Positions 37,434-62,821 of a stretch of DNA of 64,000 bases are shown one piece after another. Positions within the stretch are counted from its first letter, which is position 1. Each line of letters begins with the position of its first letter. A program made the translations under genes and the position numbers. Under the pieces are notes generated by a model. The model had not been told where the DNA came from and did no database searches. It saw only the letters and a list, made by a program, of their open reading frames with translations. The stretch is taken from NCBI GenBank assembly GCA_950295325.1, contig OX485804.1, positions 21,266,001 to 21,330,000 of the forward strand. Direction: 5' to 3'. The stretch comes from Polytrichum commune (Eukaryota > Streptophyta > Polytrichopsida > Polytrichales > Polytrichaceae).

Positions 37434-37652
37434 ATTCCTTTTTCTTTTCTTTTTAGTAACTTAAAACGTTGGAGAGAATGGACATGGGCTTAAGTTAGCA
37501 GCTATTGGCACCTTAATTTCATTTTGAACCCTAATTTCAACACGGGTAGATCACTCCTTGTCAAATTGAACACCACGTGCGGACAAAGTTTGCTACCCCT
37601 ATATTACATGCCATATATAATTTTAAAATTTATGATTTTTTTTCTACATATA
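37434..37652 (+). repeat. Left direct repeat bounding the 25-kb unit
   Basis: 219 bp, repeated in the same orientation at 62296-62515 with one substitution (AAACG versus AAATG near 37465/62328) and one T indel in a T run. Its first 107 bp precede, and its last 112 bp are, the left part of a hAT-type MITE that is complete only at the right-hand copy (62403-62813). The repeat therefore ends in the middle of a MITE and is not a conventional LTR (no TG...CA, no primer-binding site). Confidence 0.9.
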
Positions 37653-37815
37653 GGTGTATAAATGTATATGTGTATAAAATGTGTATAAAAATGTGTATAA
37701 ATGTATATGTGTATAATGCCTTATAATTGTATATGTGTATAAATGTGTATAATTGCTTATAATTGTATATAATGTATAAATGTATATGTGTATAAAATGT
37801 GTATGATTGCTTATA
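37653..37815 (+). repeat. TGTATAAATGTATA-type simple repeat
   Basis: Degenerate (TGTATAAATG)n array directly inside the left direct repeat. The open frame of the phosphatase-like fragment reads through it into low-complexity Y/T/H/I residues, so its true end must be before this tract or lost. Confidence 0.75.
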
Positions 37816-37819
37816 AATC

Positions 37820-38545
37820 TGAGAACTTGGCAGCTCTAGATTGAAGGGTCCCTGTCCTGATGGATAAGGGTTGCTCCCCACAAAATCTGGCACATACTGT
37901 TGAGAACTCAAGAGCCTTTGCAGGTAACTATGCAGAGTATCCAAGCTTTGGGTTGACATAAATGGGGGAGGGTTAATGTAGATCCCAGGAGGGTTTGGGA
38001 TGCATTTGTAAGGGGAGTCATCAACAAGTAATGTAGTTCTATGACTGGGTTGCTTCGTATGCGACACTGGATGCGTCCGGCTCCACTCAAAAAATGCGCA
38101 CAGGTCTTTCATGAAGAAGCTTGAATCAGCATTCATAGGACTAGGAAGAATTTGTCCTCTCTCATCCTTCAGAGTGTGACACAATTCTTACCCAAACACA
38201 TACTCTGGCTGTCTACAACCATTGAAGAAGTGTCGGACAATTGGCTGAAGATTCTTCATAAGCTTCGACGACCAGATGACAACATGGAAGTTTGCAAGAA
38301 CAAAACGCAGAAAGCGCCCCAGTCCTTTCCTAGGTATGAGGGCACTATATGGAAGAAAGAGTGGAGCCAACTCCCCAATTATCTGAGGGCTATATTGTGA
38401 TTCAAGAGTCTTCCTGGTGTTGACATTGTCGCACTTTGTTGACCTCACCAGGATCCCGTTCACATCCAGCACTAACCATATCTTCTCTCTCCGATGGATA
38501 ACAGTGGTTGGAGAGGTGAGGATCTGGCGATGACAAAATTGAAAG
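37820..38545 (-). pseudogene. FCP1/NIF-type (HAD) phosphatase-like fragment, interrupted by one stop
   Basis: A possible exon opens after TCATCGCCAG at about 38534 and reads ...REKIWLVLDVNGILVRSTK, then IPRKGLGRFLRFVLANFHVV-IWSSK, an in-frame TAA at 38190-38188, then CHTLKDERGQILPSPMN, and TTLLVDDSPYKCIPNPPG. These are motif 1 (DxNG, as in a plant subfamily of FCP1-homology proteins), the PGL...FL...VxxWSS block, and the DDSPYK block of FCP1/SCP/NIF-interacting-factor phosphatases. Known members remove phosphate from the RNA polymerase II C-terminal tail or other phosphoproteins; with N in motif 1 catalysis here is doubtful. The stop replaces what would be Gln (CAA to TAA). The upstream frame (38788-38402) is open but unrecognised. 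It may be a captured host gene fragment or the 3' exons of gene A. Confidence 0.6.
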
Positions 38546-38783
38546 TAATTGTAAAGGATTTCTATCTAAGGAAACAGTAGATTCTACATGATTTTTATCG
38601 AATGAATCAACACGTTGGGTACACATGAGTATGCAAGATAAAAGAATGCCTGCACATTTATTGATTAATTTTGCGAGATCGGGTAAAATATCGTACCGAC
38701 GGTGGTATTCCGGCAGTGGCTGTATGACCTGTGACAACATGCACACACGACATATGAGATCCACACGCTCAAACCCATACTCT

Positions 38784-38805
38784 CCCACGGGTGAACACCC
38801 GTGGG
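38784..38805. repeat. Inverted-repeat unit (AA centre)
   Basis: Perfect 10-bp arms CCCACGGGTG / CACCCGTGGG around AA. Leftmost unit in the window, about 1.1 kb inside the left direct repeat and downstream of gene A. Confidence 0.9.
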
Positions 38806-38886
38806 CACAATATTAAAAAACCTTTACATAAATAATACTCGAGAGATAACAAATTGTATGGAAATTGAAAAGTATACACAGGTGGT

Positions 38887-38908
38887 CCCACGGGTGTTCA
38901 CCTGTGGG
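38887..38908. repeat. Inverted-repeat unit (TT centre, one mismatch)
   Basis: Arms CCCACGGGTG / CACCTGTGGG around TT, extended outward by GT/AC. Lies just past the likely end of gene A. Confidence 0.85.
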
Positions 38909-38986
38909 ACCAATTGCATTCAAATAACACTATATATGATACCTTGAGCTTGGCTTAGGGGGGGATCCCCAGCATGTGGAGGGTCG

Positions 38987-41900
38987 TCATGAGAACTCCG
39001 TGGGATGACAATCCGTTCTGCCGCAACCAACACCTGTTGCAAAGACACTTTTAGAAATCTTGACGACTTTGCTTTCAAGATGAACACAATATTGAATTGG
39101 GAAGGAAGTATGTAGTACCATTTCGGACGATGCCGGTTGACCCTCAGCATACCGGTCGACATGAGGGCTTGAGGACTCCGCAACTGCAACATTGACTTCC
39201 TTCCTTGGAGACTCTGGCACTCCACTAATGTCAATGATCTCCAACGTCGAGTCCACAACACTGCCGGCTTGAGCGGCCGAGGACCCCGCGAATTGACCTC
39301 GTTCTTCACGATGTTTCGGAGCTTCGAACGCTGTCCATCTCTTTCTCATTTTCTTTAATGCAGCGGCATGAAGAATATGTTTCACCTTCACTGCTGCACA
39401 AAACGCTGGTGTGGAGAGATAAGCGAACATCTTGTGATAGTTGTACGACTTGTACAAATGCGCAAGATTCAATCGCACGTTCTCGGGCACATCTACCAAG
39501 TATTTGTCCACAAACGGGGCAAAATGCACCTTGTCCTTCCCCTCTGATTCCTTGCCCATGTCAGGTCTCTCAGCAAACATCGGGTGAGAGTCATCAACAA
39601 AGTTGAGTTTCACTCTGTTGTACCCGGGCTTTCCATAATCTTCATCCTCGGAATCATCTGTCATGTAGTCAGCAAACGTCCCCCGAACCCGATGTGGAAC
39701 TCGATCTCTGACCTTCACCCTCACGTCTAGTTCTACGCATCTCTCGGGCACATCGTCATCATTATCCAAGCATATGACTTCGGTTCGAATAACCTCCTCT
39801 GCTTCATTGGATGGTGCCGCTACAGTAGGCTCTTCTGCAACCACAACATCAGGGGAACCACGGTTTGATCGCCCATGGCCTAGCACCTCGAGAACGGCAG
39901 CGGCAACGTCCTCCACAGGTGAGCTGACGTTTAAATCTGTGCTTGTCCCTTCAACATGCACAGCTTCAGACATGATTGCATCCCGCGGAACATCCTCCAC
40001 ATCCGCTACTTGGCCAGATTCAACCTCGCGACAAAGACCAGATTGCTCCGTTGCCTCCGAAGACCGCAAGTTGGCACCAACTCTAGGGGGACGTAGAGAT
40101 GACCTTCCCCTTCGAGGAGCTCTCATTTTCTTCCTTGCAGTTGGTTTCGCTCCAGACCTTGCAGGAGGATTAGCTGACTGCAGACGCTCATCCTCCTCAG
40201 ATTCTTCCATAGGTTGAACATCTAGTTGTTCTTGACTTCGTCTAGATGCCTCAAATGGTACAAACCCGCGGCCGGGTGTAGATGGGATCCCAGACGAGAA
40301 AGATGCCACAGTGTCATGGACACTGTGCACGGCTTATGGTCCTTCAACTTCCTCTTGCCGCTCTTCCTCACCCTCACCCTCCCCCTCCCCCACGGGTGAA
40401 CACCCGTGGGGAAACTCCTCCGGGGACATGGCTTCCGCAGACGCCGCCGCCATGGCCGATGCCTTGAAATTGAAGGCCTCCTCCTCCGCCTCTGCCATGG
40501 CCTCCGCCAGTACATCGTCCATGGCCACCTCCTCGTCCTCCTCGTCCTCCTCCTCTTCGTCTTCGTCGGCCTTTTCTTCCTCCTCTGGAGACTCCCCTAG
40601 AACAACAACTGGGTCATCTTCCTCCTCCACGTCTTCCTCCTCCTCCTCTTCCTCATCTACCTCCTCTTCATGTGTGTCATTCCCACGCTTTCTTCGAATC
40701 TCGCGCTCAATGATGGAATCCACATCGATACGCCCTTCTTCCTCTTCCATATCCACGGCAGCGACATTTCCCTCTTCATTCCACCTTTGTAGGCTCCAGT
40801 CAACTGCGGAAACCATTTTCGTCTTCGCCACCTCTAGCATCTCTACCGGCACAATATTCACCACCTTCATACCCAAGGCCTGCAAAAACCAAGGAATGAG
40901 AAAAAGACTTCTCAGTCAAATTAGTCTACATCCAAAAGCGAAAAGAGAATCAATAAACCAATAGTCCCAACTTGTTGATTGTCAACCAACTAATTGTCAG
41001 GAAAGCTATCGAGCAGGTGGCTAGCAACCAGGTGGATATAAATCACGTGGATGTCTAGGCCCACGGGTGTTCACCTGTGGGCCTCCCAACCTGGTTCATG
41101 GCTAGGTTATCCAATGCACCATCCAAACCAGGAATAGTACTCTGAAATTCAAGAACCACTTAGGGGAAAAGATGCTCATTACTTACATGAGCCACTATGT
41201 GCGCCTTATTGCCTCCACAAATATTGAGGAAAAAAGACCCCTCAAGACATGAAGGCTTGATGATATCTATGTAGGTCTGCATCCTCAACTCCCCCTTGAA
41301 TAAAGACTTGACCTCCTCATTGGAATACGCCATTTTCACTGAATAACGTTTATATCGTCCCGGGTCATGGACGTCCAACATCTTCCGGCCTCCACAGAGC
41401 CGCACAGCCACCTCCGAACTTGACTCGCCCCTATTGTTAAAAATGCAAGTTGTAACCCGAAGAGCATTTGATTTGAAGAAGCAATCGCGAGATGCAATTT
41501 TCTCCTCTTTAGTGCCATGGTATAATGCGTCACAAAATCTGATGTTGCTCGGCAGGTGCGCCTTCAGTACATTGTGAATGAAATGCCGATCCGGATATTC
41601 CGAAATCACGGTCCACAATTGGGGGGAGTTTAAAAGGCCTGGAAAATCACGACGAAGACCTTGCAGAGTGGAATCCATACACTCCTTCACACGCCCCCCA
41701 GTGCCTATTCCCGCCTGGACTCCGGGGAGAAACCTTGTGTCCATGTACGCGTGCAGGACTGGTGCAAGCACTGTCCCACCACTGAAGTTGTAGTTGTTGT
41801 CAATAGACAACACGACATGCTCAGGTGTAACCTCGGTGTTATGTGTACCTAATATGTTCTTCACTCATTCTCTAAACCGGTCCGGAATAGGTACTCTCTT

Positions 41901-44900
41901 CCTTGTGGGGTTCATAGTGCCAAGAAGGTACTCCGCTCCAAGTCGTTCTCGCTGGAGTTTACCAAACTTATGTGCATACTTCCATACTTTCCAACAATCA
42001 CGATCAATAGTCTCTTTCTGATCGACATGAACAATGTACAATGGAGTCGGGTCTAGACACTGTGTCATCGCGATATAAGTTTCATTCTTCTTTTTCCTAT
42101 TCATCGCCCAATCGCGCACAGTCTTCAAGGTATGTCGAGGGTGCTCCTCTCCATCTCTGGTGGTGAGGATTTGATTCGCTGCCATGTCGAGCTCCATCTC
42201 TGTCAAGCCCCGAAATTGTTTCAGGTCGTTCTTGACCACCTTCTTCGACTTAAACCCCTTTATCTCTTTTATAAGAGCTCCGGTCTTCGGGTCTACATAG
42301 TCACCACTCTCGTAATCCTTGAATATCCGCTTCCACTTCCTCCATATGTCATCGCTCAATACAGGCAAGACGTGCTCCATGATCAGGTTGGTTTCCTTCT
42401 CCACGCGGAACGTCCACATGACGCACGTAATGAATGCATGTATCAAACACCGGCAATGTATCAATCTCTATAAAAAAAAACCTTCATGTATTTCTATCAA
42501 TCACCAACAACATGATAGTCTCCCACGGGTGAACACCCGTGGGAGTCACAGAAATGAGAAATTCAAAAGTCACAGGTTTGAAATATATCTTCCACTTCTT
42601 AAAAGCTTCCGTGTTGTTGGCCTTCTCGCGTACAGTTCGGTCAGGTCTTCCTTGCCTAATCCAAGTCTTCCTAGCGTGCTGAATGCACTCCGTAAATGAC
42701 GGAAAGTGCTTCCTGTATTCACTATCCAGGTTCAGAACGCCAGAGAGGTGGAACAGAGGGTCGTCATCACCTTCAGGGGCCCAGACCACATTACAAGGCC
42801 ATTTCGAGAAAAACCTCTTCACCTCATTTGTGCTGCTGGGATCATTCACATACTCCAGACATGCTGCTAACGTGTGCTGTCTATTTACCACGTGGAACGA
42901 TTTGTCCTTCACCTCCTCAAAACTGAATGGTTTAGTTTGCCTATCCGAAGGAACGATTGTCAAGAAGTTGGGATGAATCTTCGGAATGAAGGCATAGTTG
43001 AATAACCATGTCTTGATCTCCTTAAAATGCGCCTCGGATATAGGTCGGCAATTATACCCTGCATCTCCCCGCTCTATATTGTTAATATTGACATATCCAT
43101 TCACGCCTTCACCGAATATCCACACCCTTTGGTACTTGTTCTTGAACAACTCCATATCCATCAACCTGTCTCCAACCGATTTGTCTGGAGGCCCATGCAT
43201 TGATCACTTGGGAATCTTCTCGAGTTCAAGAAATGGACTATCCTCGGATGTTTTCTTCTTGCCTCTCTTGGAGACAACATCCTGGCCGGAAGTTTCAAGG
43301 ACAAGCAGTGGTTGTCCTTCATCGGGTCTCGTCTTCTTCCTAGACGAGGTGGCACGGACATCAGCAGGATCCTTCCTCTTGCCATCGCGGATTTCCTTCT
43401 TCTTCAAAGATGCTTCTAACCTCGCCGCCTTTGCCTCCTCAACTATAACCTTCACTCGTGCTAGAGCAGATTTGTAGTCCTGCTCGATCATTACTGATCT
43501 CTCCTCCACGGACTTCGTGTGCACATTGGTCTCGCAATATACTATACAATAGGTGAGGAAATCACCGTTCAATAAGCGGATGTTCTCTCCCTCATTGTTG
43601 AGCTCCTCATTCACATCCGCATATGAGAAAGTCTCCACGAGTGCTGCAACCTTGAAGTCCTTCTTCCGTTCAGACGACTTGCACATTATCAATACCCGGC
43701 TCCCATCCGCTTGAATGTCCAATACATGTTTTACCTTCATGTACTTTCTCCATGTGGAATTGGGCCCAGTCCTCGTGTAAAGCGAGAGCACCGTTGTCTC
43801 TCCGAAACCACTATACTGCATGAACCATTGCAAATCTGGGCCAAAAACTTCAACATCGTGATTCACCCGTCTGCCCACACCTCCTGATACTGCAGAAGAC
43901 AATGCACGTGTTAGTACTCAGCATAGCCCAATATTATCACGGATTCTATAACTCAGATAACATTGACGTGCACATAGGTATTGTGGTTATACCTTTACGG
44001 GCTGTTTGCTTTGTTCTTGCCATCTCAATTCAAATGAGAGAACACTTCGACACCTCTATGTACCTGAATGAAACACCAACTGTCTATCACATGTTTATGT
44101 CTAAAACCTTCAAATGTTTACAAAGACACACCAAATATGTCTACATAAAAAATCCAAAAGACATTTATCAAACAAAATCTCCCACCCAGGTGAGTGCAAA
44201 GGCTCACGGGTGAACACCCGTGGGCACTCCTAACCAGGTGAGTGCAAAGGCCCACGGGTGAACACCCGTGGGCACTCCTAACCAGGTGAGTGCAAAGGCC
44301 CACGGGTGAACACCCGTGGGCACTTTCAACCAGATGAGGGGAGAGGCCCACGGGAGGGCTGATTTTTCACAAAGTTTTAGCTCGTCCACGTCCAAAAACC
44401 TTGAATTGAAAGGCAAAAAAAATCTCAACCCGTCCCGAAACTCGTTGCACTTGGAAACAATAGGATCTTGACAAATTATGCCTTCAATGTTCGTCAGTTT
44501 TTTGTCTTTTTCTACCGATTCTGAGCTTTTCAGTCCACCCCATTCTAAATTGTGTGGTTGAAAAATTAATGTATGCAGGTGAATCAAGCACTTCAAGATT
44601 GATATTTTGATTGGGTTTTACTGGGTTGATTGCATTATGCTTATATTCACATGTCATATATGACATAATGTAACAGATATTTAGACCATCTTTCTAGGAA
44701 AATGTATCAAAAGAATTTTCATTTTTAGAACCCGTCCACAGTGATATCAAGCACGTCCAAAAACCGGTTCATTTTCTACGAACACGTCCACTGACCTTTT
44801 GCTTTATGAACATGTCCCTAGACATGTTAGGGACCTTGTGAAGAATCACCACTGCCCACGGGTGTTCACCCGTGGGACTCTCCACCTGGTGAGTGCAAAT

Positions 44901-45211
44901 GCCCACGGGTGAACACCCGTGGGCACATTCAACCAGATGGGGGAGAGGCCCACGGGTGAACACCCGTGGGCACATTCAACCAGATGGGGGGAGAGGCCCA
45001 CGGGTGTTCACCCGTGGGCCTCTCCACCTGGTGAGTGCAAAAGCCCACAGGTGAACACCCGTGGGCACATTCAACCATATGAGGGGAGAGTCCCACGGGT
45101 GTTCACCCGTGGGCACTTCAAATATCCACTTCCAGATAACCGCTTTCACACTAACAGAAAAAACTGGGATTTATGTAATGGACACTCACCAGGGTTCTTT
45201 GGTCGGACCAT
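38987..45211 (-). CDS. Gene A: large multi-exon protein with possible ParB-like segment, three in-frame stops
   Basis: Inferred exons: a 5' leader exon ending at 45718 (donor GTAAGT); exon 2 45242-45190 with the ATG at 45211; exon 3 43889-42550; exon 4 42467-41187 (donor GTAAGT); exon 5 40879 to 38987. Phases agree at every joint, giving about 1,511 codons starting MVRPKNP-VSGGVGRR. Codons about 150-215 are charged and basic (coiled-coil-like, then KRKDP, SRKKTR: a nuclear signal). Codons 275-350 resemble the ParB/DGQHR fold: NINNIERGDAGYNCRPIS, then VVNRQHTLAA (N343-R-Q-H). Codons about 920-1010 are almost all acidic. In-frame stops lie at codons 236 (TGA), 655 (TGA) and 1063 (TAA); no frameshift was found. 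Each stop is one C-to-T change from CGA or CAA. The TAA could instead lie in an unrecognised intron (GTGAGG donors at about 40365). The exon 5 tail near 39060-38940 may be spliced differently. The ParB link is inference; the rest is unrecognised. Confidence 0.6.
40389..40410. repeat. Inverted-repeat unit inside gene A exon 5
   Basis: Perfect arms with an AA centre on the plus strand. In gene A's frame it would encode PHGCSPVG. It is the only unit within an apparent exon; GTGAGG donors next to it suggest it may in fact mark another intron. Confidence 0.85.
41060..41081. repeat. Inverted-repeat unit in gene A intron 4
   Basis: Arms CCCACGGGTG / CACCTGTGGG around TT, one mismatch, within the 307-bp intron 41186-40880. 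Confidence 0.85.
42522..42543. repeat. Inverted-repeat unit in gene A intron 3
   Basis: Perfect arms around AA, within the ~82-bp intron 42549-42468 and only a few bases from the inferred donor (GTGACT). It makes up over a quarter of this intron. Confidence 0.85.
44203..44369. repeat. Tandem array of inverted-repeat units, part 1 (gene A intron 2)
   Basis: Full units at 44203 (one mismatch), 44251 and 44299, at an exact 48-bp period, with the spacer CCAGGTGAGTGCAAAGGC. A half unit lies at about 44347. All the full units have AA centres on the plus strand. Confidence 0.9.
44855..45113. repeat. Tandem array of inverted-repeat units, part 2 (gene A intron 2)
   Basis: Six units at 44855, 44902, 44949, 44997, 45044 (one mismatch) and 45092, at 47-48-bp steps. 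Centres are TT, AA, AA, TT, AA, TT, so orientation is mixed. The unit at 44997 extends to a perfect 36-bp inverted repeat (44990-45025; 17-bp arms GGAGAGGCCCACGGGTG and complement). Confidence 0.95.
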
Positions 45212-46140
45212 GTCAAGATTCTTTCAACACGAATGTGGTTTCCTGCACAAAACAAAACACAAGAGCATTTGTTTCAAACTATGCCTACATGTGCAATACA
45301 TTCATACTCTCAAACATCTCAACAGGTAAATTCTGGTCTCACATTTTTCTTGCATTCTGGTCTCACATTTTTATGAACATAACCTCTTGTCATTCATCTT
45401 GCATTATGATTTGAGCATTCTTCTCACATTTCAATCAACTCTTCACACCCAAGCATCACACAATTCACATGCAAATCTCTAGTATTTATGGGTTTGAAAT
45501 TCTTCAAGCAATTCAAACCCTAATGCACCAGAAATTTAGTATCTTATGCAACAAGTGTCAAGACATTCCAAACATTCATCATTTAGCTCTGATTCACCAC
45601 TGCCAGACAACTTATAGCCACAAGCATTACAATGCAAGCAAGAGGAAGAATGAAATTGAAAGAAAAAGCAAAAGAGTGAAAGAGAGTACAAAACATTGAA
45701 AGAGTTCAGAAACTTACAAGCTTGTGGGTTCTCAAATCTTCATGATTGGAACTTCCCTCCACTTGCTTCAGGGTCGCCTTCCTCTTCTCCACATCTCACC
45801 ACTACCACATGCTGGATTGAGCAAGAAACAACTATGCTCACCAAGAAACTATCACATATTCCAAGAAAATGCACACTGAATCTATTCCAGGGTTTTCTTG
45901 AGAAGAGAATCAAGACAAGGAGTACAATAATTGAATGAAGAGAAGAGAATGAAGAGAAGCAAAGCAAAGCAAAGCAAGTTCAGAATTGTGGGAGAAGAGT
46001 TTTGCAACAACATTCCAGAAATGTGGAGAGTGGTGAAGGAAAGAGAGAAAGAATTGGGAGAGGAGAATGAGAGAGAGGGTGCGACATGTTGCCATAATGA
46101 CGAGCGGGTGGAAGTCTAATGACACATAATGCCTCATTAG
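45212..46140 (-). other. Gene A leader exon and intron 1
   Basis: The AAGCTT/GTAAGTTTCTG donor (45718/45717) closes an upstream non-coding exon. The T-rich acceptor GTTTTGTTTTGTGCAG (45243-45258) opens the exon holding the ATG. The transcription start is probably somewhere in 45.9-46.15 kb on the minus strand; I found no convincing TATA box. Intron 1 is the only inferred intron of genes A and B without an inverted-repeat unit. Confidence 0.5.
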
Positions 46141-46219
46141 TACGAAGGGACATGATGGAGAAAATCTCGGGACGCGAAGAGATATGCGATTTGGCGGCTA
46201 AAGTACGTTTTGAGGAGGG

Positions 46220-46780
46220 ATGGGCGGTATGATGGTATTAGGAGGTAGCGATTAAAAATTATTGGTACTTTGTAAGGTTCGCCCTATTGGTATGATAATT
46301 ATTAGTACTTAGTAAGATATCTAAGTATTAGTGAGATAATTATTAATACTTAGTAAGATATCTAAGTATTAGTAAGACAATTATTAGTAAGATAACTCAT
46401 ATTAGTAATTATTAGTAATTATCAGTACTTAGTAAGATAACTCATATTAGTAAGTTCATTATTAGTACTTATTAAGATAACTCATATTAGTATGATTGAT
46501 ATTATTTTTATTGTTAGTAAATTGTCATATTCACTCTATTTTTAATATTAGTAAAAATAATTTATAGCTATTAATAGTAATTACCAGTAATAGTAACTAA
46601 TAATAACTAATAGTGACTAGTAGTGAATAATAGTGAATGCTAGTGCTTCATAGGTCATTATAGTCATTAATAATGTTTAATAGTGATTGATAATTATGAC
46701 TTACTAATGGGTGACTAGTAGTGATTAATAGTAATAATAATAATCACTTTCAATCGATAAATGGTAATAGTATTGATAAT
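46220..46780. repeat. AT-rich degenerate TTAGTA tract
   Basis: More than 500 bp of variations on TTATTAGTA, TTAGTAAGATA and TAGTAATAG, including two near-copies of a ~46-bp unit (46296-46380). Almost no C. It directly follows the upstream edge of gene A. Confidence 0.8.
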
Positions 46781-47290
46781 GCTTAAAATAGATTCATATT
46801 ATAACATAGATTCCATACTTTAACATTCTACTCTGTAACATAGCTTCCTATTATAACATACCAAAGTCAATTGCACATTCTCATAATATGCGTGTAAGAT
46901 GCTCAATCGCGCTTGACATCAAGCATAGCTATGATTTCCAATTCCTTATTGATGAAGTCATGAGCATCCATAATAGGCCCACTTTCACCATAGCCCATGA
47001 ACTCAAGTTCAATTGTTCTCTTGTTTTCTCTTGGACTATGAACCATTAGAGTTCCAAGAATTCAAAATTTTAAATATAACATATATTTATCATCCTTATC
47101 ATCCTTATCATCATCGCCTTATACCATATATATTGAGAGGATGACAAAGGAGGTGGCCAACGAGTGGGCCACATCAAGCACCACATGAATCTCGAGCAAT
47201 ATTAAGATTGCATCTCCATAACCATAACTCATGTTTGCTCGAATGTTGTGTGGCAAAGTATTGCAATCATCTACTAGAGGTTTTGGCTAA
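46781..47290. other. Spacer
   Basis: No gene seen. Confidence 0.45.
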
Positions 47291-47294
47291 GTTA

Positions 47295-47837
47295 GGGCCG
47301 GTTTACACCATGGACCATGAAGTCGGAGCATGGAAGATGGCATTTTTTTTCCATGGTCCAATTTCTTAAAAAAACAATATCCAAAGCCTTTGGGCCCCTC
47401 ACTATGTGTAAATTGAATGTGGACCAAAAAACGAATGTGCTGATTTTCTAAATATATGCCCAAAAGAGCACTTTTGAAAAGAAAAAGAAAAAGAAATCAA
47501 AATTGACAATTCTCTTGTCTTCTCTTGTCTTCATCTTCTCTCCCCCCCAAAAAAAACCATTAAAAAAGTTATTATAACAACATTTCTTTGCCATGGGCCA
47601 TTGCCTTTTTCTATGGAGAGCACCTCTTTTGCCTCTCCCACCGCAAAACCCGTTGGACCATGTCAATGGATAATTTAGGCCTTAAAATATGTCCTTTGGG
47701 GACCTCGAACTCCATGATCACCTTGACATTTTTTTTTCCTTGTTGTAAACCGAAGTGGTCCCGGGACGAGTTCAACAACCAATCACAAGCTTTACAGGGC
47801 CTTGAATGACTTCATGGTCCATGGTGTAAACAACCCC
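47295..47837. mobile_element. TIR element, PIF/Harbinger-like, non-autonomous
   Basis: 543 bp with inverted ends: GGG(CCGG)TTTACACCATGG continuing ACCATGAAGTC on the left and its complement, ending AAACAACCCC, on the right. Flanks are TTA and TAA, near the 3-bp TWA target of PIF/Harbinger. No transposase inside; a short open frame on the minus strand has no domain. Confidence 0.65.
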
Positions 47838-47909
47838 TAAATTAGGTGCAGTTTGACAGAGGTTTCCAAACCTCTCCCTTGTTTGTAGTTTATCTTCGGT
47901 TTACAATAA

Positions 47910-51339: not shown

Positions 51340-51533
51340 GGGCCACACTAAAAATGAACAACAGGACTTAGAATAATATAAGGTATCAAAAATGGCAATG
51401 GACATCTTTAAAGTACTATAGGGTATGGAAGAATATGTAATTTGGAATTATATGAAATGCAAGGCTTTTTCTATTAACCCAAGGTTGAAAATGCTAATGA
51501 AATAAATAACCCTAAACCCTAAACCCTAAACCC
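51340..51533 (+). mobile_element. Partial poly-G MITE copy with telomere-like tail
   Basis: Contains the family's AAAGTACTATAGGGTATGGA block and AATTTGGAATTATA, then GAAAATGCTAATGAAATAAA and a (CCCTAAA)n tract at 51508-51533. The same MITE-plus-heptamer join is seen at 54539-54799. Confidence 0.65.
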
Positions 51534-51649
51534 ATTAGTGTGGTAGTCCACTTAGTGTTGGACCTTCTTAGTTGCTCGCCATCTATTTGTGTCCCACTCA
51601 TATGCAATTAGGAGTCTAGTAACAACTAATTCTCTTTTATCGCGCATCC

Positions 51650-51860
51650 ATGTGCAAACAACCACTATTTTATATGGGGTTATTACCTTCAATTTTTTTC
51701 TTCACATGCTATGATTATGTAGTTTTCTTAGTTGGGTTAGTAGAAAAGGGCCTTGCATTAATTATAAATCCAAATAATCGATTTGTTCCATACCCTATAG
51801 TACTTTAATGATGCCCAGTGTCATTTTTGACACCCCATATTATATTTGCTTTAACATGGG
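51650..51860 (-). mobile_element. Partial poly-G MITE copy, inverted
   Basis: The reverse complement matches the 25190-25530 body (AACCACTATTTTATA, TCCATACCCTATAGTACTTT). It lies head-to-head with the copy at 51340-51480. Tips not preserved. Confidence 0.65.
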
Positions 51861-54535
51861 CGGACGTTAAATACCCCCTCACGAACTTTTGGAGGTATCT
51901 AATCTGGGTTGGGGCAATCTTGTAGCGAAAATTTCTAAACCCAACCAAAAATTGCAGTCTTGAAGGCCGCTTGACTACAAATCCCATATTGAGTGCACTA
52001 AAATCCGCTTGACTTACCATAAATAACTTATATTTGTCATTCTAATGATGGATTAGTGCAAGTGTTTATAAGAGAATAAGGTATAAATAAATGATATGTT
52101 ATTTGGAATTAGACTCGTGGGACAACGTTATGGATGGGGTATATATTACTCAGAAAATCATAAGTTTCTGACTATGGCCTATCTGAATTATTTAATAATT
52201 TATCCTCATCACATATTGTATTATCTTTCAAATCACATAGTGTATAACCGTTACTTTAAAATAAATATAATTATATGATACTAATACTAATACTAATACT
52301 ATTATGCAAATACTAACAATAACAATACTAAGACTAATATTGAATTGAGTTTTTTAGTTCACCAATTTATCATAAGGTGATATATATTATTGTGCCATAT
52401 TACAAATGTTTGAACAATCACACATGTGCAAAATAAATGAATTATGAACAAAAAGATGTCTATGACAACACTTCATAATTATATATTGCACACATTGATA
52501 TCTTACGATATTTATCAAAATAACCATGTGAAATTCAAAGCCACATCATGGCCTTGGAAACATCTCATGGGAGGTTAGAAAATAGGCTTAGAGCATCCAA
52601 GGCCACATCATTGCCCCTTGCCAACTAATTAATATTTATAAAATAACTATGAGGGAGAAAGTAGGTCTTACATGCCAACTCGGAGGTATTTCACTAAAGT
52701 AAGCTCCATCCGAGCTTCTTGATGGACTCATCCGATTTTTGTTACCGGATGACTTTACTTGAGTGCCACGAATCCCCGGCCCTTTCAAGTGGGCTTGTAC
52801 GGTTAAGGTATTTGTTGACTTTCATATTTACGGCCTCGAATGTCCTTTCCAAAGTGCACATCTAAGGGTACTCATGTAAGTATAACCATGCTATCACATA
52901 GAGCCTTATTATAACCTAACATAGTCAATCGCACACTCTCAAAATATGCTTGTCATTGTAGGGTCGATAGTGCACATGGATTGACAACCTAAGTACCAAA
53001 GTACTAAATTTGAGCAACAACAAATCCCACATGGATGCAACATCTATGGCTACACGGTCCAAAATTGAGCTTTTATATTCTCCTTAAAGGTGATTTCAAA
53101 AATACTTTATGGCAAGTCCACAAGTCATACCCATGGATTGGAGCATGACATTATGGAAAGGTTACTTAAAGGTTACTCAAAGGTATTTGACCCCGATTTT
53201 AAAGAGTAGTTTAAGTGCATACATGCACATGAAGGTTTTACAGGGGCATGGGCATATGGTTTGCATGGGTGATTGTGGTTGGGTTCATGCAAGATATGAA
53301 CCCAAAATGATTCATACGGACTAGTGTAATGGGTCAGGATGGCACATGCCCAAACTAATAAGGTGTGTGGGGCTCATTGATAGTTGTAGTTTGAGGAGGG
53401 AAACTTGACTAGCTCTATATTCAAGCACATGGAAATTGATTTTCATTTGAGCGGAGAAACCTTGGTTTTTATATACATTGTTAGTGTGAACCATAATTTG
53501 TTGTATTTACATTGAGAGTTCATGATGCCATGTTCTTACTATTCAAACCTTGCCCAAAGTTTTCTTAATTTATGGAGATTTTGTTTTTCATTTTTCTAGC
53601 ATCCCATGATGCAAAATCAATCAGTCTAGTCAATCAACAACTAAAGTGCGTCAGTACAAGGATGGCCACGTTTCAACTTGTGTTTTGGGCAACGAGCCGA
53701 ATCTGCTACCCCCCCCCCCCCCAACCACCATTGCCACTCCACATGGGAGTGCCCAGTCCAAAAGATGCTTGAAGATACCGGCAAAACCTTCACCAACGTC
53801 AGAGAACTCTATTTTGTTTCACCAGAACGATTGGTACATGAAAGTGTGCCCTAACTTGGGCCAGACTAATTTGGGGTCAATTCAACTAAATAGGGTTTCC
53901 AATAAACTTTGAAAAATAACCTCCTTACTACATACTAGTTTAAAGTTTCATTGTTGGATGAATGAGAGTAATATGCTCGTATGCGATAATCCCATTTCGT
54001 TGGCCAAAAAAACATTGATATGTATATAGGGCCTCACATTAGAAGCCCAAGCCCTTGAGGATGTAAATGCTATCACAAATTCCCCATGCGTAGGCAAAGC
54101 CTTCCTTTTGGAAGCCGGGCTATGTTGGGTGCGACTATCTATTTGGGGCATCCAAGTTTGGGAAGAGGGGGTTGACATTGCAACCATTGTATCTCATTGC
54201 ATCTATTAAGGGGTTGTATGTGTTTGTTTTGTATTGTTGTTTCAATGTATGTGTTGTGGCATAAGGTTTAGGTTAAGGAGTATATGTCCTCTAGCTGCAT
54301 TGGGAGTTCCAATCACACACGTGGTGTCCAAACTAAGTCTACCCAAACATGTGCATTATCCAAGGACATGTCAAATGATTGGAGTCACGTTTTTCTACAG
54401 CCTTGTCGATCGGTCAGCCTTAAGCCATCATTTTGACATGGGATCTCAAAACGGTCATCCAAACGGGATAAGTGGTGGGCCCATAAGTATATAGCGTAAA
54501 ACCTAGGAAGTGCAGCTAGAAATGTAGTGGACACA
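51861..54535. other. Gene-poor stretch
   Basis: No gene recognised; a run of C at about 53699-53715. Short open frames have no domains. Confidence 0.4.
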
Positions 54536-54538
54536 TAC

Positions 54539-54800
54539 CGGGGGGGGGGGTTGTGATGTATTGGAGTAGAAATATATGTGCAAAAAATTGAGAGGGTATA
54601 TGGGGACGTAAAATGAACAAAATGATTTAGAATAATATAGGGTGTCAAAAATGGCGTTGGACATCTTTAAAGTACTATAGGGTTTGAAATAATAGGTAAC
54701 TTGGAAATATAAGTAATGCAAGGCCCTATCCTACTAACCCGGTGCTGAAAATGCTAAGGAAATAAATAACCTTAAACCCTAAACCCTAAACCCTAAACCG
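54539..54800 (+). mobile_element. Poly-G MITE variant with telomere-like tail
   Basis: Starts with CCGGGGGGGGGG, keeps the AAAGTACTATAGGGT block, then a stretch reading CTAAGGAAATAAATAA and (CCCTAAA)n at 54772-54799, ending AAACCGG. Tips may be CCGG/CCGG. Confidence 0.65.
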
Positions 54801-54889
54801 GTTTATAAATGGATCAACATCTCTAGCGTAGTGCTATAAATTTGATGATTTTCCCCAGTGTAAATAGGGCATTGACGCCCGAGTTGGCC

Positions 54890-54892
<3 letters not shown>

Positions 54893-54926
<34 letters not shown>

Positions 54927-54956
54927 CATACATACATATAGACACACACACACATA
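54893..54956. repeat. (TA)n/(CATA)n/(CA)n microsatellite
   Basis: Compound dinucleotide repeat. Confidence 0.9.
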
Positions 54957-55389
54957 TTTGTGGTCGCGGAACTCTATGGTATGTTGCTACATGTCCAACA
55001 TCATGATTGATAAGAATGACAAGTGATGCTAAAAGATGAAAAATGGGTTGTGCAAATCAAAGAGGTGCCATGAAAATGGACTCTCTCTCCCTCTCTCTCT
55101 CTCTCTTTGGTGGCATTTTGCATGTTTCAGTCAATACATGCAAATTCATTTTGTAACATGTGGCGCTTTCAAGTCAAAGATGGATAAACCCTAGGCTTGA
55201 GCTATTGGGAGAAGGGTCGAATTGTCAAATTATGTATAATGCCATAGTAGGAGTCTAGGTAGGTATTGAGTCATCACATCCTATATCATACTATTAATGG
55301 GGGTGGGCGAGGCAAGGTTGAGGCAAGTTGACAAGGTTGGGCATGGTCACGAATCATTGGTGCTAAGGTTGAGGTCACATGAGAAAGTT

Positions 55390-55680
55390 ATTAAATGGGC
55401 ATCTTGGATAACTTAACTTGATAAAACCACCACAAGTTATTGTGAACCGTTGATGATGAGGTTGAGGTTGTTTGGGAAGAGTGTTCAACAGTCATCTTGG
55501 ATAACTTAACTTGAAAAAACTGTTGTGAACCATCGGGGTTTAGGTTGAGTTTGAGGTTAAGGTTGAGATTGTTTGGGAAAGGTGGTCCACTTAACTTCAT
55601 AATTATAAATTCAAGGTTTTATGTTTTGATGTAATAATTCTCAATGGTCATCTTCGATAACTTAAGTACATGATTGTGAC
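55390..55680. repeat. Local degenerate tandem repeat (~100-bp unit)
   Basis: The block CATCTTGGATAACTTAACTTG occurs at about 55400 and 55493 (21 bases, one shown fused here as CATCTTGG-ATAACTTAACTTG), with a weaker third CATCTTCGATAACTTAAG at 55649. Each is followed by TTGTGAACC-like and TTGAGGTT/TTGTTTGGGAA blocks. Confidence 0.6.
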
Positions 55681-56472
55681 CTTAGGGTTTTGATGTTTAA
55701 TGCTTCAAAGTCGTGAACAAAACCAAGAGGTTTATAAAGGAAAGTGACACATACTCCTTTGGTAAGATGAATCCACAAAAGTGCAAACTCAAATTCATGA
55801 TTTAACAAAGCAATTTAGCGATAGGTTCTTCCAATTTCATTGGAAATATGAACCTGGTTCATGGTCCAAGTTCATTATTTAAACAACCAATTTCAGTACA
55901 TGTTGTGAACAATTTCATGATTTGGTACCCATATTCAAAACTTCACAAAATCAATTTTAGGAAATGCATAACTCTATTTCACAAAGAACATTACATCATG
56001 TATAGGATTATCCTAGTAAACAAATTGCTCCCTATTCCGCACAACTATACACTACACTCCAAAAACATTATGCGCTTTGCTCATGCTACCAACACTCTTC
56101 CCATAATCAAACCCCCAACTACACTACGTACACTCTCAAACCCATGAGATTACGCACTCCAACTATGTTGGGTATGAGTTGTTTGCTTTGATGTACAATA
56201 ATCAAAGACCAAAGGAAAAATGACATTGCTTGCTTCTAACTCCAAGGTAGTGTAATGAAGACCAAAGAAAATTTGACATCAAGGCTAGAGGCTTCCAAGT
56301 AAATACAAAACAATGAGAAGGCAAAGAATGCGAAATGAGGCGGCGAGAATTTGAGAAATAAAAAAACCATAAAGTGTGAACTTGATATGGAAGATTCACA
56401 AAGTTGCTAAACATAAATGTCCACAATGGGGTGGAGCGAGGCAAGTTGACAAGGCTAGGAAAGTATAAGTAT

Positions 56473-56827
56473 CTTGGGGGGGGGGGGGCGGGGCAGTGTG
56501 TTAAAAAGTTAAGGATATAGGTGTGAACAACCACTATTTTATAGGGGGGGTATTACTTTCAATTCTATTATTTTTCTCACAATGATGCTATCATTATGTA
56601 AATTTCTACTTTGGGTTAATAGAAAAATGGCTTGCATTACTTATAATTCCAAATTACCTATTATTCCATACCCTATAGTACTTTAAAGATGTCAAGTGTC
56701 ATGGTTGATACCCTATATTACTCTTAACTCCATTTATAATTTTTAGCCCCCATGTTTTTAAAATACCCTATCATTTGTTCGCACGTATATTGCTACTCCA
56801 ACCAATGACTACCCCCCCCCCCCCGAG
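56473..56827 (-). mobile_element. Poly-G-tipped hAT-type MITE, full copy 2 (inverted)
   Basis: 355 bp, matching the reverse complement of 25190-25530 over its whole length, including GTGTGTTAAAAAGTTAAGGA. Flanked by ATAAGTAT and AGAAGTAT (7 of 8 identical), consistent with an 8-bp hAT target duplication. Confidence 0.8.
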
Positions 56828-57845
56828 AGAAGTATATGAAACTTTTCCGAAGTTGCAACACAATGGGCCACAATGGGCCACAATGCTAGTTGCTCTAAAA
56901 GGAGCAGGCTAGTGTTGAGCTTCAAACCTCGAATTTGGGAGCCCTTATTCCCAAATTAGACTGCAAACATGAAAGTTAATAGTAGCTTTGACCGGGTTAT
57001 CCTCGCACCTTGCCCACAAAATAGGCATCCTATTCACAATTATAAAATATAAAAGAACTATAACTCTGGTGAGAGAATCCCATGTGGTTGTTAACTCTTG
57101 CGGATGAAACAATACCTAACCTTCATACTATTCATTTTGCAAGGGTGCCCATCATAAGTGGTGGATAATTCCTACATTCCCCACACTATGGGTGATCACC
57201 TAAGTGATGAGTATGTATGGTAGGCACCAAGACATTGTATTGGCATTTGTTTGTGCTATCCGTTTGAGTTATGTTGGGCCACCTTTTGCATGGGATAAAG
57301 TGCTTCTTCAATTACATGTGATGACCTTGACTCCCCCTTGACTACAAAATACAACCTCAAGATTGTGATAATGTGGGACCGCAAGTGACATGCTACACTT
57401 TGTTTTTAACAACTACATAGTCACCATTAAATTTAAGAGTTGGCAACTCCATGACCCTATTTGTGTTAGAGGTTCTATTCACTTGCTTCTCCCTTGCTTG
57501 TCATTTGTCACCATCACAATGTCGCACACAATGGACCTGTTATGTGTGCACATGTCCTTATGTAATTTTGGCATGAGTATGCTTGGTAGTGGTATGAGGT
57601 GTATGCAAAGGTTACACAATGATCATTGGTACCGCAAAGACTCTCCTTCGCCTTGTAACAAATTTTCACTCCATGTACATACGATGTAGAACCCCACTAC
57701 CGAAGGTCATCATTATTCAATATGAGGAAGGTTAGAACGTGATTAGCTAATAGCGATAGGAATTGGAGGGAATGACGTCTATGTACTTACGAATTTGGAG
57801 GGAATGCCTTGTACTTCCTCATGTGAAGTTGATGGCCATGCTCAC
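56828..57845. other. Spacer upstream of gene B
   Basis: No gene recognised; open frame at 57390-57689 has no domain. Confidence 0.4.
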
Positions 57846-57849
57846 GACC

Positions 57850-57857
57850 TATATAAA
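57850..57857 (+). promoter_or_regulatory. TATA box of gene B
   Basis: TATATAAA inside CCTATATAAAGGCC, 71-78 bp upstream of the gene B ATG. The transcript would start near 57880 in a pyrimidine-rich stretch (TTTCTTTCTCCTC), giving a leader of about 45-50 bases. Confidence 0.75.
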
Positions 57858-57927
57858 GGCCACCATTTGGAGGGTCATTTCTTTCTCCTCATTTGAGTCC
57901 ACCCCCCTTCACCCTTGAGGAGCAACC

Positions 57928-60900
57928 ATGGAGAGCGTGCCTCACATGAGTGAAGAGGTTGGTTTTATAACCCCAATGTGCATCCACTTTCCCACGGGTG
58001 CACCCGTGACAACACTCTGGCCGTACGCCTCCTGTACGGCCAGTCTGCCACGGGTGTTCACCCGTGGGAGACGCTGGCACCCGGTTTGGGGCCCCCACGG
58101 GTGTTCACCCGTGGGAGCTTATGGTTTTTATTTCGGTTATCCTAGCATATGTCAGAATAGAAGTTATCCATATGCTCATGTGTGTGACAAACTTTATAGT
58201 AGTAGATGTCAGCATGGTAGCCTCCCACGGGTGAACACCTGTGGGAGAATCCGGCACCAGCATGGAAGCCCCCACGGGTGTTCACTCGTGGCAGTTCATG
58301 ATTTGTATTTTAGTTCTCCCTACATATGTGTGGTTATAAGATAGGCATGTATCACGTGTGTGACATACTCAATAGTTGTATATGCAATTCTGCTTATTTG
58401 TAAATTTCCTGCTGAGTATGTGAAATATGTTGTCAATGGGTAATTGGTACATATTATTACGAGTTGGGAGTTTCGTGATGCATTATGATAAATGATGTCG
58501 ATGATATTCGTTAAACTGGAATGTTGACACTATCCTGAATGGCAACTATTTCGCTAGCACTTGGGCTAGCAGATGTGACACCTACATGCATAGTAATAAT
58601 TGTACACAAGTAAGTGTTAGGGGTGATAGTTTTGGTGTTTGGGCTTTGTGGAAACTGGTAATAAGGGTCATTCTCCCAATGGGGATATGATAAGTAACAC
58701 ATACTTCACTTGAGTTGTGTGAAGTGAGGTGTAGAGCGTACCCCTATATGAATGTAAATATTCTGCTGAGATTTCAATGTTGTCCCCCACGGGTGAACAC
58801 CCGTGAGCTTCTGGTCAATGTGTGTTGACTTACTTTGATATCGATGTTCAGATTCCACATTACATTGGACTGTCGAGGACGGACTTGAAGGGGAAGGCCG
58901 TTGTGCTCTTTGATGATGAGGGCCATGCTTTGTGTGATGGATTGATTTGCAACACAAATCCGTTGGATTGTGTTGACAATAGCATCCTAGGGGCTGAGGA
59001 TGTTGGAGTTATTATCTTGAACCCAACTGACAATGTTATTTCGCGGGATTGGGAGAATACGCTGCACCGATGGCCACTTTCACTCACCAAATTTGAAGGA
59101 CATACATTAGCAGAAATATTGTTGGTCCATCATAATGCGACCCGCGAAGTTCAAAGTCATCGGCGCTTGCTTGGAAAACGCCAATACAACACTGTGAGGA
59201 TGTGTGCACCTCGGCCACCTGGGAAGAAAATTTGGGGAGCCACTGAGGAGCATGCGCGGATGTTATCAGCGGTGGATTGTTGTTCCGAGCATTGTTGCCA
59301 GGTATTCCCAAGGCCTTTGTTGATGAGTATTCGGGAACACTACTTCGCATTGCCATTCAATGCTCGGAAGCTCATAGCCCTGTCGGTGTTCCAATCGATC
59401 CAGAAACATGAGCACAACGGACGCGAAATGGTGCAGTTGGAAGGGAGAACAATATGCACTCGAGCATGGATGAACATCTATATGATATCAAGGGCACAAT
59501 ATAATAGGAACAAGGCTGAAAGCTTGATGGGGGTTAGATCTCGAGATCATGGAAATACAGGAACTAGAAAACCACGGACGAATGCAGTGCAAGCACGAGC
59601 CACCCTTGGAGTATTGGTTGAGGGTAGGGCGGACGCCATGCCCCATATGACTCGGACTCTTCCAAGTGGTGAGAAGATAGGGACGGAGATGCTCCCTGTG
59701 GGAACAACGTGGTGCAACCTATTGCAGGAAGTGAACAACTTGGACGGAGACCTAGGGTACACGCCTATCTCTACGTCCACCTTCAGCCGCCTACATCAAC
59801 AACATTTCAAGCAGTATGTTATAAAGAGCCCCGGCGACAACTTCTCGCGTTGTGGAACTTGTGCAGCATTCAAGGATTTGTTGCGAATACACACAAAGAA
59901 CACAGCTGGTCACTTGGCCATCTCGAATGCTAGCCTTCGTCATCTAACATTGCAGGAGGCTCATAGAAACAGTTACTATAAAGATAGGATTTTGTCAAAG
60001 TATGCTCCCAATGAGGTGCTTTGTATAATCCATGACAAAATGGATTATGGGAAAACGGCTCTTCCCGTTTTCGCGCACAAAAACAAACGTGTTGACAAAT
60101 ACGAGCGATTCCCCATATCCATTGCGGGGATGATTGCACATGGTCACTCAGATGTGAATTATGCGCATTATGTCCTTGATATGTACCCATCCGATGCCAA
60201 CTTCACTATCACCTCGATGATGAAGTTGCTTTGTCAACTTGAGGTAGAACCTGTTTGCTCTAGTAGACACATTCCGATTTCGTCCATAGGTGATCCTTTA
60301 CACGACGCATTGGTGGTTGGTGTGGAGAAGTGTTCAGGAGTACTTCCCTTGCCACCGCCCGCAAGTATTCCTCCTACAGGTTTGCCACCCCTCCTCCTTG
60401 TTCAAATGGACAATTGTGCGAAGGACAACAAATCAAAATACAACATGTTGTTTTGGTCAGCTTTGACTGCAAAGGGAATTTTTCGGGAAGTCAGGGTGTC
60501 TTTCCTTATTGTTGGACATACGCATGAGGATGTGGATGCAATGTTTGGGAGGTTTGGACAAAGGCTGAAGATTGAGGATTGCCATACACTCCCAGACCTC
60601 ATGGCATCGTTCATGGCTGCTGGGGAACCCACTATTGTCCCGTCCTTAATCCACGAGGTTGCAGATTTCAAGGAATGGGTGAAGGGATACTACAATGAGT
60701 ATGGTCAAGATCGACTTATTGGGCATTCCAAGGCGCACCAATTCCGTTTTTATGTAGATCCTCAAGGAGTGCCATTGATGCAGTACAAAGTGTATTGTAC
60801 AGATCCAAGTTGGGTGCCTGATGGAGGAATTGCTCTTTGGAAGGTGGACCCTATCACAAAGAAGACCATGGTCCCAACAGGTTAGTGGGTCCCTTGTTTG

Positions 60901-61801
60901 TATTGCTTTGGAAGTGCACTAGAAAATACATGGTGTGAAGTATGTGGCCCACGGGTGATCACCCGTGGGCAGTTAGTCCGTGGTATTGCTCCGAGCTCAT
61001 TGTATGTTTGTTTTTGTAGGGTGCCCCCGTCCCGTTCCAAAAAGGGAGATGAAAGATTCCGTGAACATAAAGCTTGGGGTGCAAGGTTTTATTAAGTATT
61101 GGAAGGATACGGCAGATCAAGATAGTTCGGGTCAATATATGGAGTCCATTGCACCAACAATTTTATATTGGGAGAATGTGCTTGCGGCTATGGATCAACC
61201 TTTACTCCCAACTCCATCTGAACTTAGCGAGCCATTCTGGCCAGCTACACGGTACTCCATTGCACCAACCCTCCATGTGGATAATGTGCATCTACTTGAG
61301 GAAAACATCATTGATTATGCTTACGTGGGGCCAGCTAGTTCTCGACCTGTTGAGACCTTCCGTCCCGGCGCACATATACAGGTTGGCCATTATGTGTTAC
61401 TACGTCCTAGTGAGGATTGTCCTAATCCAGTGTGGATGGGACGAGTGATTTCTGAGCCGAATTTGGCACATATCGGTCCTAATCCTCGTTCCATTGAGAT
61501 TGTCTATTATGTACCGGTCCTTGGCCAAAGGAACAAGAAGACCTTAGATGAACGTTATGAGGAATGGGACACGGCAAAATCTTTTCGATGGACGAGGCTC
61601 AAGGACTATGCACCACAACATCAATCCCTAGATTGTGTTGTGGCATCATGGGCAAGACAAAGGAATGCGTCCGATGACAATGTTCTCATCCCAGCTCGGC
61701 AAATTCTTTTCGCAAAGGATAATTTAGATCGATGCACTAGAGGTGAGAAAATGACTGATGGAGATACTTTCGAGGATGGGGTACCAACAGAAGACCTCTA
61801 G
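57928..61801 (+). CDS. Gene B: DUF7869-like, transposase-like protein (3 exons, intact)
   Basis: Exons 57928-57957, 58852-60880 and 61020-61801 (donors GAG/GTTGGT and ACAG/GTTAGT; acceptors GATGTTCAG and TTTTTGTAG) join in phase to 946 codons with no internal stop, starting MESVPHMSEE-IPHYIGLS. Exon 2 has a cysteine pair RCGTCAAFKDLL followed by the conserved core: IIHDKMDYGK (D405, D408), LLLVQMDNCAKDNKSKY (D530-N) and VGHTHEDVDAMFGRF (residues 564-576). That order is the hallmark of DUF7869 proteins, and the spaced acidic residues suggest an RNase H-like DDE-type nuclease fold (inference). The C-terminal exon has VGHYVLLRP...PVWMGRVIS, possibly a small beta-barrel reader domain (uncertain). 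Both introns contain inverted-repeat units: six in intron 1, one in intron 2. The TATA box lies 71 bp upstream. The intact frame with normal splice sites argues for recent function. Confidence 0.8.
57991..58115. repeat. Inverted-repeat units in gene B intron 1, group 1
   Basis: A shortened unit at 57991 (perfect 16-bp palindrome CACGGGTGCACCCGTG, centre lost), then units at 58047 (first base changed) and 58094 (perfect), both with TT centres. Between the first two lies a separate palindrome-like pair CCGTACG...CGTACGG/CTGTACGG. Confidence 0.9.
58224..58292. repeat. Inverted-repeat units in gene B intron 1, group 2
   Basis: Units at 58224 (AA centre, one mismatch) and 58271 (TT centre, two mismatches), 47 bp apart, the same spacing as in the gene A intron array. 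Confidence 0.85.
58786..58807. repeat. Inverted-repeat unit near the end of gene B intron 1
   Basis: AA centre, one mismatch in the right arm (CACCCGTGAG). 45 bp before the acceptor. Confidence 0.85.
60948..60969. repeat. Inverted-repeat unit in gene B intron 2 (perfect palindrome)
   Basis: Same arms with an AT centre, making a perfect 22-bp palindrome. It sits in the middle of the 139-bp intron and extends outward by G/C on each side. Confidence 0.9.
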
Positions 61802-62295
61802 ATTAAAGTTGCCTTGCTCATTCCTCGGTATCTGCGGGTGGACTCTCATGGGTGGGCTAGATGGTTGAGACCATCTAGCATGTTTGGAGCTCAATTTTAA
61901 TTTTGTGAGCATTAATTAGAGAGCCGTAGACATTGACATTTGTCCCACGGATGTTCAAACTACCACTTTTAAAGGCATCTTTTTTTGTGAATTTTCATGT
62001 GCATTGTCATATTAGCCAACATGTTTAATATTCCGCAGTCGTCCAATGTCCTCCAATGTTTAATAGTCCACGGGTGTTCACCCATGGAGTGTAGGCACAA
62101 TCCTTTTGTCTTCCTTGATGGGATCCTCCATATTACAATTGATTGTTTGCCCGGTTTCATTGGAACACTTGGTTTGTGGTCCCTAAAACCTCTACGGGTA
62201 TTCTCTCGTACAAAAAAAGCAATCATTGCGTTCCCATCACGTTCCCCACATTAAAATGAGCGGACCATTTGTCTCATTTTAGTTAATATCCCCAT
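61802..62295. other. Gene B 3' flank
   Basis: Contains degenerate inverted-repeat traces (half unit CCCACGGATGTTC at about 61944; unit at 62067). A 9-bp hairpin TAAAATGAG...CTCATTTTA at about 62253-62282 lies 14 bp before the right direct repeat. No gene. Confidence 0.5.
62067..62088. repeat. Degenerate inverted-repeat unit, rightmost
   Basis: TCCACGGGTG / CACCCATGGA around TT. It keeps pairing through compensating end changes (TCCA/TGGA). Last unit before the right direct repeat. Confidence 0.7.
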
Positions 62296-62515
62296 ATTCC
62301 TTTTTCTTTTCTTTTTAGTAACTTAAAATGTTGGAGAGAATGGACATGGGCTTAAGTTAGCAGCTATTGGCACCTTAATTTCATTTTGAACCCTAATTTC
62401 AACACGGGTAGATCACTCCTTGTCAAATTGAACACCACGTGCGGACAAAGTTTGCTACCCCTATATTACATGCCATATATAATTTTAAAATTTATGATTT
62501 TTTTTTCTACATATA
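62296..62515 (+). repeat. Right direct repeat bounding the 25-kb unit
   Basis: 220 bp, two differences from 37434-37652. Here the sequence continues into the rest of the MITE (to 62813), so this copy joins the uninterrupted right flank. Confidence 0.9.
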
Positions 62516-62813: not shown

Positions 62814-62821
62814 AATTTCAA

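Follow-up and report, generated by a model that had tools for sequence, protein, structure and literature searches.

Divergent genes sharing a palindrome family in Polytrichum commune: a possible transposon-derived cassette with a histone H3-like peptide

We analyzed a 64,000-nucleotide stretch of the Polytrichum commune genome (GenBank assembly GCA_950295325.1, contig OX485804.1, positions 21,266,001 to 21,330,000 of the forward strand), referred to below as the window, whose own numbering is used throughout. The window contains two divergent predicted multi-exon genes, gene A on the minus strand and gene B on the plus strand, which are accompanied by a common family of 22-bp palindromes and lie, as a unit of about 25 kb, between two nearly identical direct repeats, DR1 and DR2.

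Gene B is, by its gene model, an intact three-exon gene predicted to encode 946 amino acids without internal stops. A TATA box (TATATAAAG, 57850-57858) is located upstream of the proposed exon 1 (57928-57957, plus strand, MESVPHMSEE), which, like the proposed intron 1 (57958-58851), was drawn from sequence signals. The main exon (58852-60880) is followed by a GT-AG intron 2 (60881-61019) that joins it in frame to the last exon, running through the stop codon (61020-61801). The frame at 58807-60882 matched Pfam DUF7869 (PF25273) with an E-value of 2.4e-46 (158.2 bits, cut-off 26), the best stretch covering model positions 56-192 of 192. Three candidate acidic residues of the modelled protein, D405, D530 and E569, have a D-124-D-38-E spacing and could possibly form a DDE triad. 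Judged by the domain, the possible triad and the setting, gene B is likely a transposase, in agreement with the initial annotation, which had placed a transposase-like gene inside the unit. A single-sequence structure model of the protein was unusable (predicted local distance difference test score, pLDDT, 29.5), and comparison with solved structures returned nothing meaningful (best E 0.71). Searches of viral contigs gave no match to gene B, and those of prokaryote contigs gave six pattern matches, none of which was confirmed. The name DUF7869 was not found in a literature search, and a scan for bacterial-type promoters ahead of the gene, which carries little weight in a eukaryote, found none.

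Gene A is predicted to begin with a histone H3 tail. Its predicted first coding exon (43993-44023, minus strand, ATG at 44023) ends in AAAG followed by the donor GTATAACC and reads MARTKQTARK, which is identical to residues 1-10 of H3. All ten residues match, compared with at best five or six of ten in six-frame translations of 15 letter-shuffled windows, and tblastn with the PAM30 matrix assigned the match an E-value of 7e-05. The next best H3 matches elsewhere in the window had E-values of 0.42 (among the PAM30 matches listed) and 8.1 (default scoring); thus, other convincing parts of H3 were not found in the window. A 103-base predicted intron with a TACTAAC branch-like site and the acceptor TTCTGCAG leads to 43889, where predicted exon 2 starts with VSGGVGRRVNHDVEV and extends to a TGA at 43206-43204 (43204-43889, minus strand). 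The joined frame would read MARTKQTARKVSGGVGRRVNHDVEVFG, with MARTKQTARK-VSGG at the junction. No Pfam or NCBIfam match was obtained for exon 2. Upstream of gene A, a GTAAGT donor-like site is present at 45717 (minus strand) behind a pyrimidine-rich leader; together with an acceptor-like ATTCAG before 44063, it would define a leader intron of ca. 1.65 kb that holds nine of the palindromes.

Further minus-strand frames follow on the gene A side. The frame of exon 2 continues past its TGA (42561-43203, right coding limit approximate) and includes FHVVNRQHTLAA, which may be ParB/DGQHR-like; a structure model of this part was unusable (pLDDT 40.8). Next come frames at 41163-42470 (start approximate), with an in-frame TGA at 41867-41865, and at 38960-40915 (limits approximate), which are acid-rich and then mixed and contain a TAA at 40336-40334. 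Finally, 37851-38565 resembles an NIF/FCP1-type phosphatase: Pfam NIF matched 38191-38565 with an E-value of 6.9e-06 and 37861-38184, below the cut-off, with 0.0066, the two parts lying on either side of an in-frame TAA at 38190-38188. This segment reads DVNGI where the catalytic motif would have its second Asp, and may represent an inactive or variant enzyme. Apart from this NIF-like frame, Pfam found nothing above cut-off in the nine A-side frames scanned, and NCBIfam found no match in eight. Of two gene A frames compared with solved structures, one had a best E-value of 1.1 and the other no match; a search of viral contigs with one of the gene A frames gave 12 pattern matches, none of which was confirmed.

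Within the window, the palindrome family is confined to the unit. The 22-bp palindrome CCCACGGGTGNNCACCCGTGGG has 21 near-copies in the window (at most three mismatches), all located between DR1 and DR2, compared with none in 100 shuffles. The window has 41 CACGGGT half-sites, all within 37541-62807, and just three of them stand outside palindromes, namely in DR1 (37541), in DR2 (62403) and in an inverted partner of DR2 (62807). Nine palindromes form two groups at 44203-45113, inside the leader intron proposed for gene A, and are 47-48 bp apart within each group. Two more lie between A-side frames (38784-38908) in a predicted intron, and three occur singly at 40389, 41060 and 42522 (40389-42543), the first of them interrupting no open A-side frame only if an intron is postulated at that place; that intron would possibly also remove the TAA at 40336-40334. 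On the other side, five near-copies and a shorter 16-bp form (57993-58008, left out of the placement counts) fall within proposed intron 1 of gene B, one (60948-60969) is within intron 2, and the outermost and most diverged copy (three mismatches, 62067-62088) is downstream of the gene. The palindrome was found neither in viral contigs nor in literature text, and a scan with Rfam at gathering cut-offs gave no matches.

In a placement test, the 21 palindromes were grouped into 12 clusters and compared with a non-coding share of 0.36. Given our exon and territory limits, the exon limits having been drawn with the palindromes in view, 11 of the 12 clusters were outside predicted coding sequence (probability 1.1e-4), or all 12 (5e-6) with an intron assumed at 40.4 kb; since the cluster at 40389 is non-coding only by that assumption, 11 is the safer count. 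All nine neighboring spacings (seven at gene A and two at gene B) were 47 or 48 bp. The spacers of A and B are 0.38-0.56 identical, within the random range (mean 0.46, 95th percentile 0.58), and equal spacing despite unlike spacers suggests that the spacing matters. One of the two gene B pairs probably arose by duplication of the other (repeat D13), and the copies at gene A are for the most part similar, which reduces the independent evidence for spacing to about one array per gene.

The impression, recorded in the initial annotation, that genes A and B look related did not hold up. In a comparison of frames no shorter than 50 amino acids (29 from the A side, 14 from the B side), all protein matches with E-values of 0.01 or better ran through palindrome sequence, and the best match free of it (E 0.013) was between two alternative frames; on their sequences the two genes are not visibly related, and homology between them was rejected. 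The interval of about 12 kb between the genes has no frame of at least 120 amino acids and carries repeat copies resembling miniature inverted-repeat transposable elements (MITEs). Members of this MITE-like family are found at 25186-25527, 51341-51533, 51652-51842, 54540-54793 and 56486-56833, four of the five lying between A and B.

DR1 (37434-37652, plus strand, 219 bp) and DR2 (62296-62515, plus strand, 220 bp) were realigned over 220 columns and differ by a single C/T change and one extra T (99.1% identity), exactly as had been annotated. The repeat sequence reads ATTCC...CATATA and has no TG...CA ends of the kind expected of long terminal repeats (LTRs), and Pfam found no gag/pol in 11 distinct frames inside the unit (frames at 46-57.8 kb, of at most 116 amino acids, were outside the scan). 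The earlier view that this is not an LTR retrotransposon is upheld to the extent that no obvious LTR element is present. The accompanying statement that everything unusual in the window lies between the repeats holds for genes A and B, the NIF-like fragment and the CACGGGT palindrome family, but other short palindromes occur beyond the unit, e.g., at 3510-3533, 31476-31494, 63201-63219 and 63454-63471. The repeats enclose the palindrome family closely, with margins of 1.1 kb on the left and 0.2 kb on the right; by post hoc hand arithmetic, two points placed at random in 64 kb would lie this close with a chance of about 1e-4. No third direct copy of the repeat was found in the window. Likeness between repeat and palindrome is weak and no more than suggestive, equal scores being reached by 10 of 1905 tiles outside the unit and by 6 of 1064 palindrome-free tiles inside it. 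Terminal inverted repeats were also sought between 37300-38900 and 61850-63000 and rejected: the exact inverted 11-mers were palindrome pairs, the known partner block of DR2 or an AT-rich self-complementary stretch of the repeat.

The surroundings of the two repeats differ. DR2 is part of a fold-back, and 47 bp of the repeat are found again in inverted orientation immediately to the right of DR2 with 87.5% identity (62766-62813, the best-kept block of the diverged partner at 62691-62901, minus strand). In a loose alignment, bases 9-220 of DR2 pair with 62901-62691 at a score of 98, compared with a maximum of 67 in 200 letter shuffles. In the longer fold-back that holds DR2 in its left arm together with the partner (62200-62992, outer limits soft), 62200-62583 pairs with 62630-62992 at a score of 144, compared with a maximum of 93 in 300 letter shuffles. 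Real sequence from the initial 36 kb of the window, compared as 358 pairs of stretches, reached 119 and 104 at best, and genuine repeats may be among these pairs. Folded as single-stranded DNA, the fold-back had a z-score of -4.59, and none of 20 shuffles was as stable. Pairing extends past DR2 on its inner side, where 1 of 200 shuffles did as well, and to a weaker degree on its outer side, where 8 of 200 did, while no continuation was detected beyond DR1 (flank scores 11 and 0), which is a bare fragment matching part of one fold-back arm and ending at a TATA/TGTG-rich simple repeat. Because pairing runs on beyond DR2 and not beyond DR1, the setting of DR2 appears to be the original one, from which DR1 would have been copied recently and in part. 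The direct repeats most likely reflect this recent copying of a portion of the fold-back arm beside gene B and are not the termini of an element, and the fold-back looks older than the copy at DR1.

The reading that we tentatively prefer, at slightly less than an even chance, is that of a transposon-derived cassette in partial decay, in which gene B would be the transposase and gene A, with the frames behind it, would be accessory genes of the same element directed at chromatin. As copies of one palindrome are present on both sides, in introns, leader and flanks and with a 47-48-bp phase where they are tandem, the sites would most likely be bound by one element protein, probably as a dimer. 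Such binding may keep the element's own promoters and introns open, by analogy with the action of VANC on VANDAL elements, and the H3-like tail of gene A could bait enzymes or readers with which the host acts on lysine 4 or lysine 9 of H3 (H3K4 or H3K9).

VANDAL elements are Mutator-like. In Arabidopsis VANDAL21, the VANC21 motif is reported to form arrays, often in tandem, that lie within VANC21 and VANB21 introns and, at VANA21, upstream of the gene (PMC5735166), and VANC is reported to induce loss of DNA methylation (PMC5735166; PMC10398659). The Polytrichum region resembles VANDAL21 in having several genes, including a transposase (VANA in VANDAL, putatively gene B here) and a further protein, which binds DNA in VANDAL, and in repeating a family-specific short motif, often in tandem, in introns (predicted ones here), upstream regions and other non-coding parts. 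Differences are evident as well. The VANC21 motif is the 9-bp YAGTATTAY, in contrast to the 22-bp palindrome (PMC5735166); VANC, in the same descriptions, has DUF1985 and DUF287, neither of which was found in the nine A-side frames scanned (Pfam, E up to 1); and the VANDAL passages of PMC5735166 mention no H3-like tail such as that of gene A. The transposase of VANDAL is of Mutator type, whereas gene B has DUF7869 and no match to a Mutator model. With fold-back elements and MITEs that have long inverted repeats, the region shares the self-pairing at 62200-62992, but the arms here are diverged, their ends are not sharply defined and inspection by eye showed no target duplication. Gene A shares a short H3-identical peptide with known mimics of the H3 tail; among the literature matches listed, as far as title and abstract start go, viral, oncohistone and linker mimics were present and no transposon protein starting with an H3 tail, and the matches listed for histone mimicry, ParB or named transposons, to the same depth, included no like case. 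The papers listed for the peptide sequence itself were unrelated, their matches probably being due to run-together words.

A number of points count against the cassette. No second copy of the unit and no empty site are known. The gene A frames are broken by three in-frame stops (43206-43204, 41867-41865 and 40336-40334), so that the parts after the first may be dead or belong to separate genes. The introns of both genes were drawn from predicted splice signals rather than transcripts, and the placement probabilities flatter the case for the reason given with them. With default scoring, the H3 match has an E-value of 0.19 because it is only ten residues long. The main frame of gene B matched no Mutator or other named transposase domain (Pfam, E up to 1; DUF7869 only). 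The extension of the fold-back beyond DR2 is modest, no target-site duplication was seen on by-eye inspection of the repeat flanks, and the tightness with which the repeats border the palindrome family favors them as boundaries.

This last point is why true ends at the repeats are retained as a rival, which the initial annotation had favored in describing a large mobile element. Its transposase-like gene and the repeats hugging the palindrome family stand; doubtful is the use of the repeats as termini, given that DR2 lies in a fold-back. DR1 would then form the terminal repeat on the left, while DR2 and its inverted partner would make up either the right end or a short nested derivative that shares the terminal repeat. 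The enclosure of all palindromes, the CACGGGT in the best-kept fold-back block and the restriction of non-palindrome half-sites to DR1, DR2 and the partner all fit such an element, but the fold-back runs on at the inner flank of DR2 and not at the flanks of DR1, no target duplication is apparent by eye and the likeness of repeat and palindrome is weak; we consider it unlikely. Slightly better placed, while still on the unlikely side, is a dispersed genomic repeat or break-repair copy that encloses A and B by coincidence. DR2 as part of a larger fold-back and DR1 as a bare fragment at a simple repeat are what one would expect of it, whereas a coincidence as close as that estimated above and the lack of a third direct copy in the window are not.

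Other rivals concern the genes themselves. A and B may be host genes, whether ordinary or domesticated, that are regulated together through the palindromic element common to both and have no mobility; the intact modelled frame and TATA box of gene B, and the lack of an assigned function for DUF7869, would suit this, but the in-frame stops on the A side and the 12-kb interval with its MITE-like copies and no long frame do not, and we regard it as rather improbable. A stronger contender, though one that we still doubt, is that MARTKQTARK derives from a host H3 gene by capture or fusion and has no bait function, or that its exon is not spliced to gene A in the first place. Identity to H3 ends exactly where the exon does, and if the 5′ portion of an H3 gene had been captured, a leader intron and a pyrimidine-rich leader such as those proposed here would be in keeping with it; against this, the VSGG that would follow splicing is close to the STGG of H3, and the ten codons are intact on the side where frames are broken. 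Returning to the cassette, its boldest extension, to which we assign a low probability, is that a eukaryotic DNA transposon protein with an H3 tail, K4 and K9 kept, is directed by the palindromes to the element's own introns and promoters and decoys host writers, erasers or readers of H3K4/H3K9, i.e., anti-silencing by histone mimicry. If true, sequence-specific anti-silencing of the kind known from VANDAL elements would have a second route with a different mechanism, and DUF7869, a domain without assigned function, would gain a context.

Elsewhere in the window, a strongly C-skewed set of decayed plus-strand frames at 31800-37200, which by eye resembles a long interspersed element (LINE) with an RNase H part, ends just before DR1; two of its frames scanned with Pfam gave no match above cut-off. 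A hAT dimerisation-like fragment at 15078-15551 (plus strand) falls just below the Pfam cut-off (21.0 versus 21.4 bits), and a loose repeat array with units about 65 bp apart occupies 13011-14374 (repeat families D6 and D10). At 3659-4486 (plus strand), a 276-amino-acid frame matches adh_short_C2 with an E-value of 1.5e-57 and looks like an intact host gene for a short-chain dehydrogenase.

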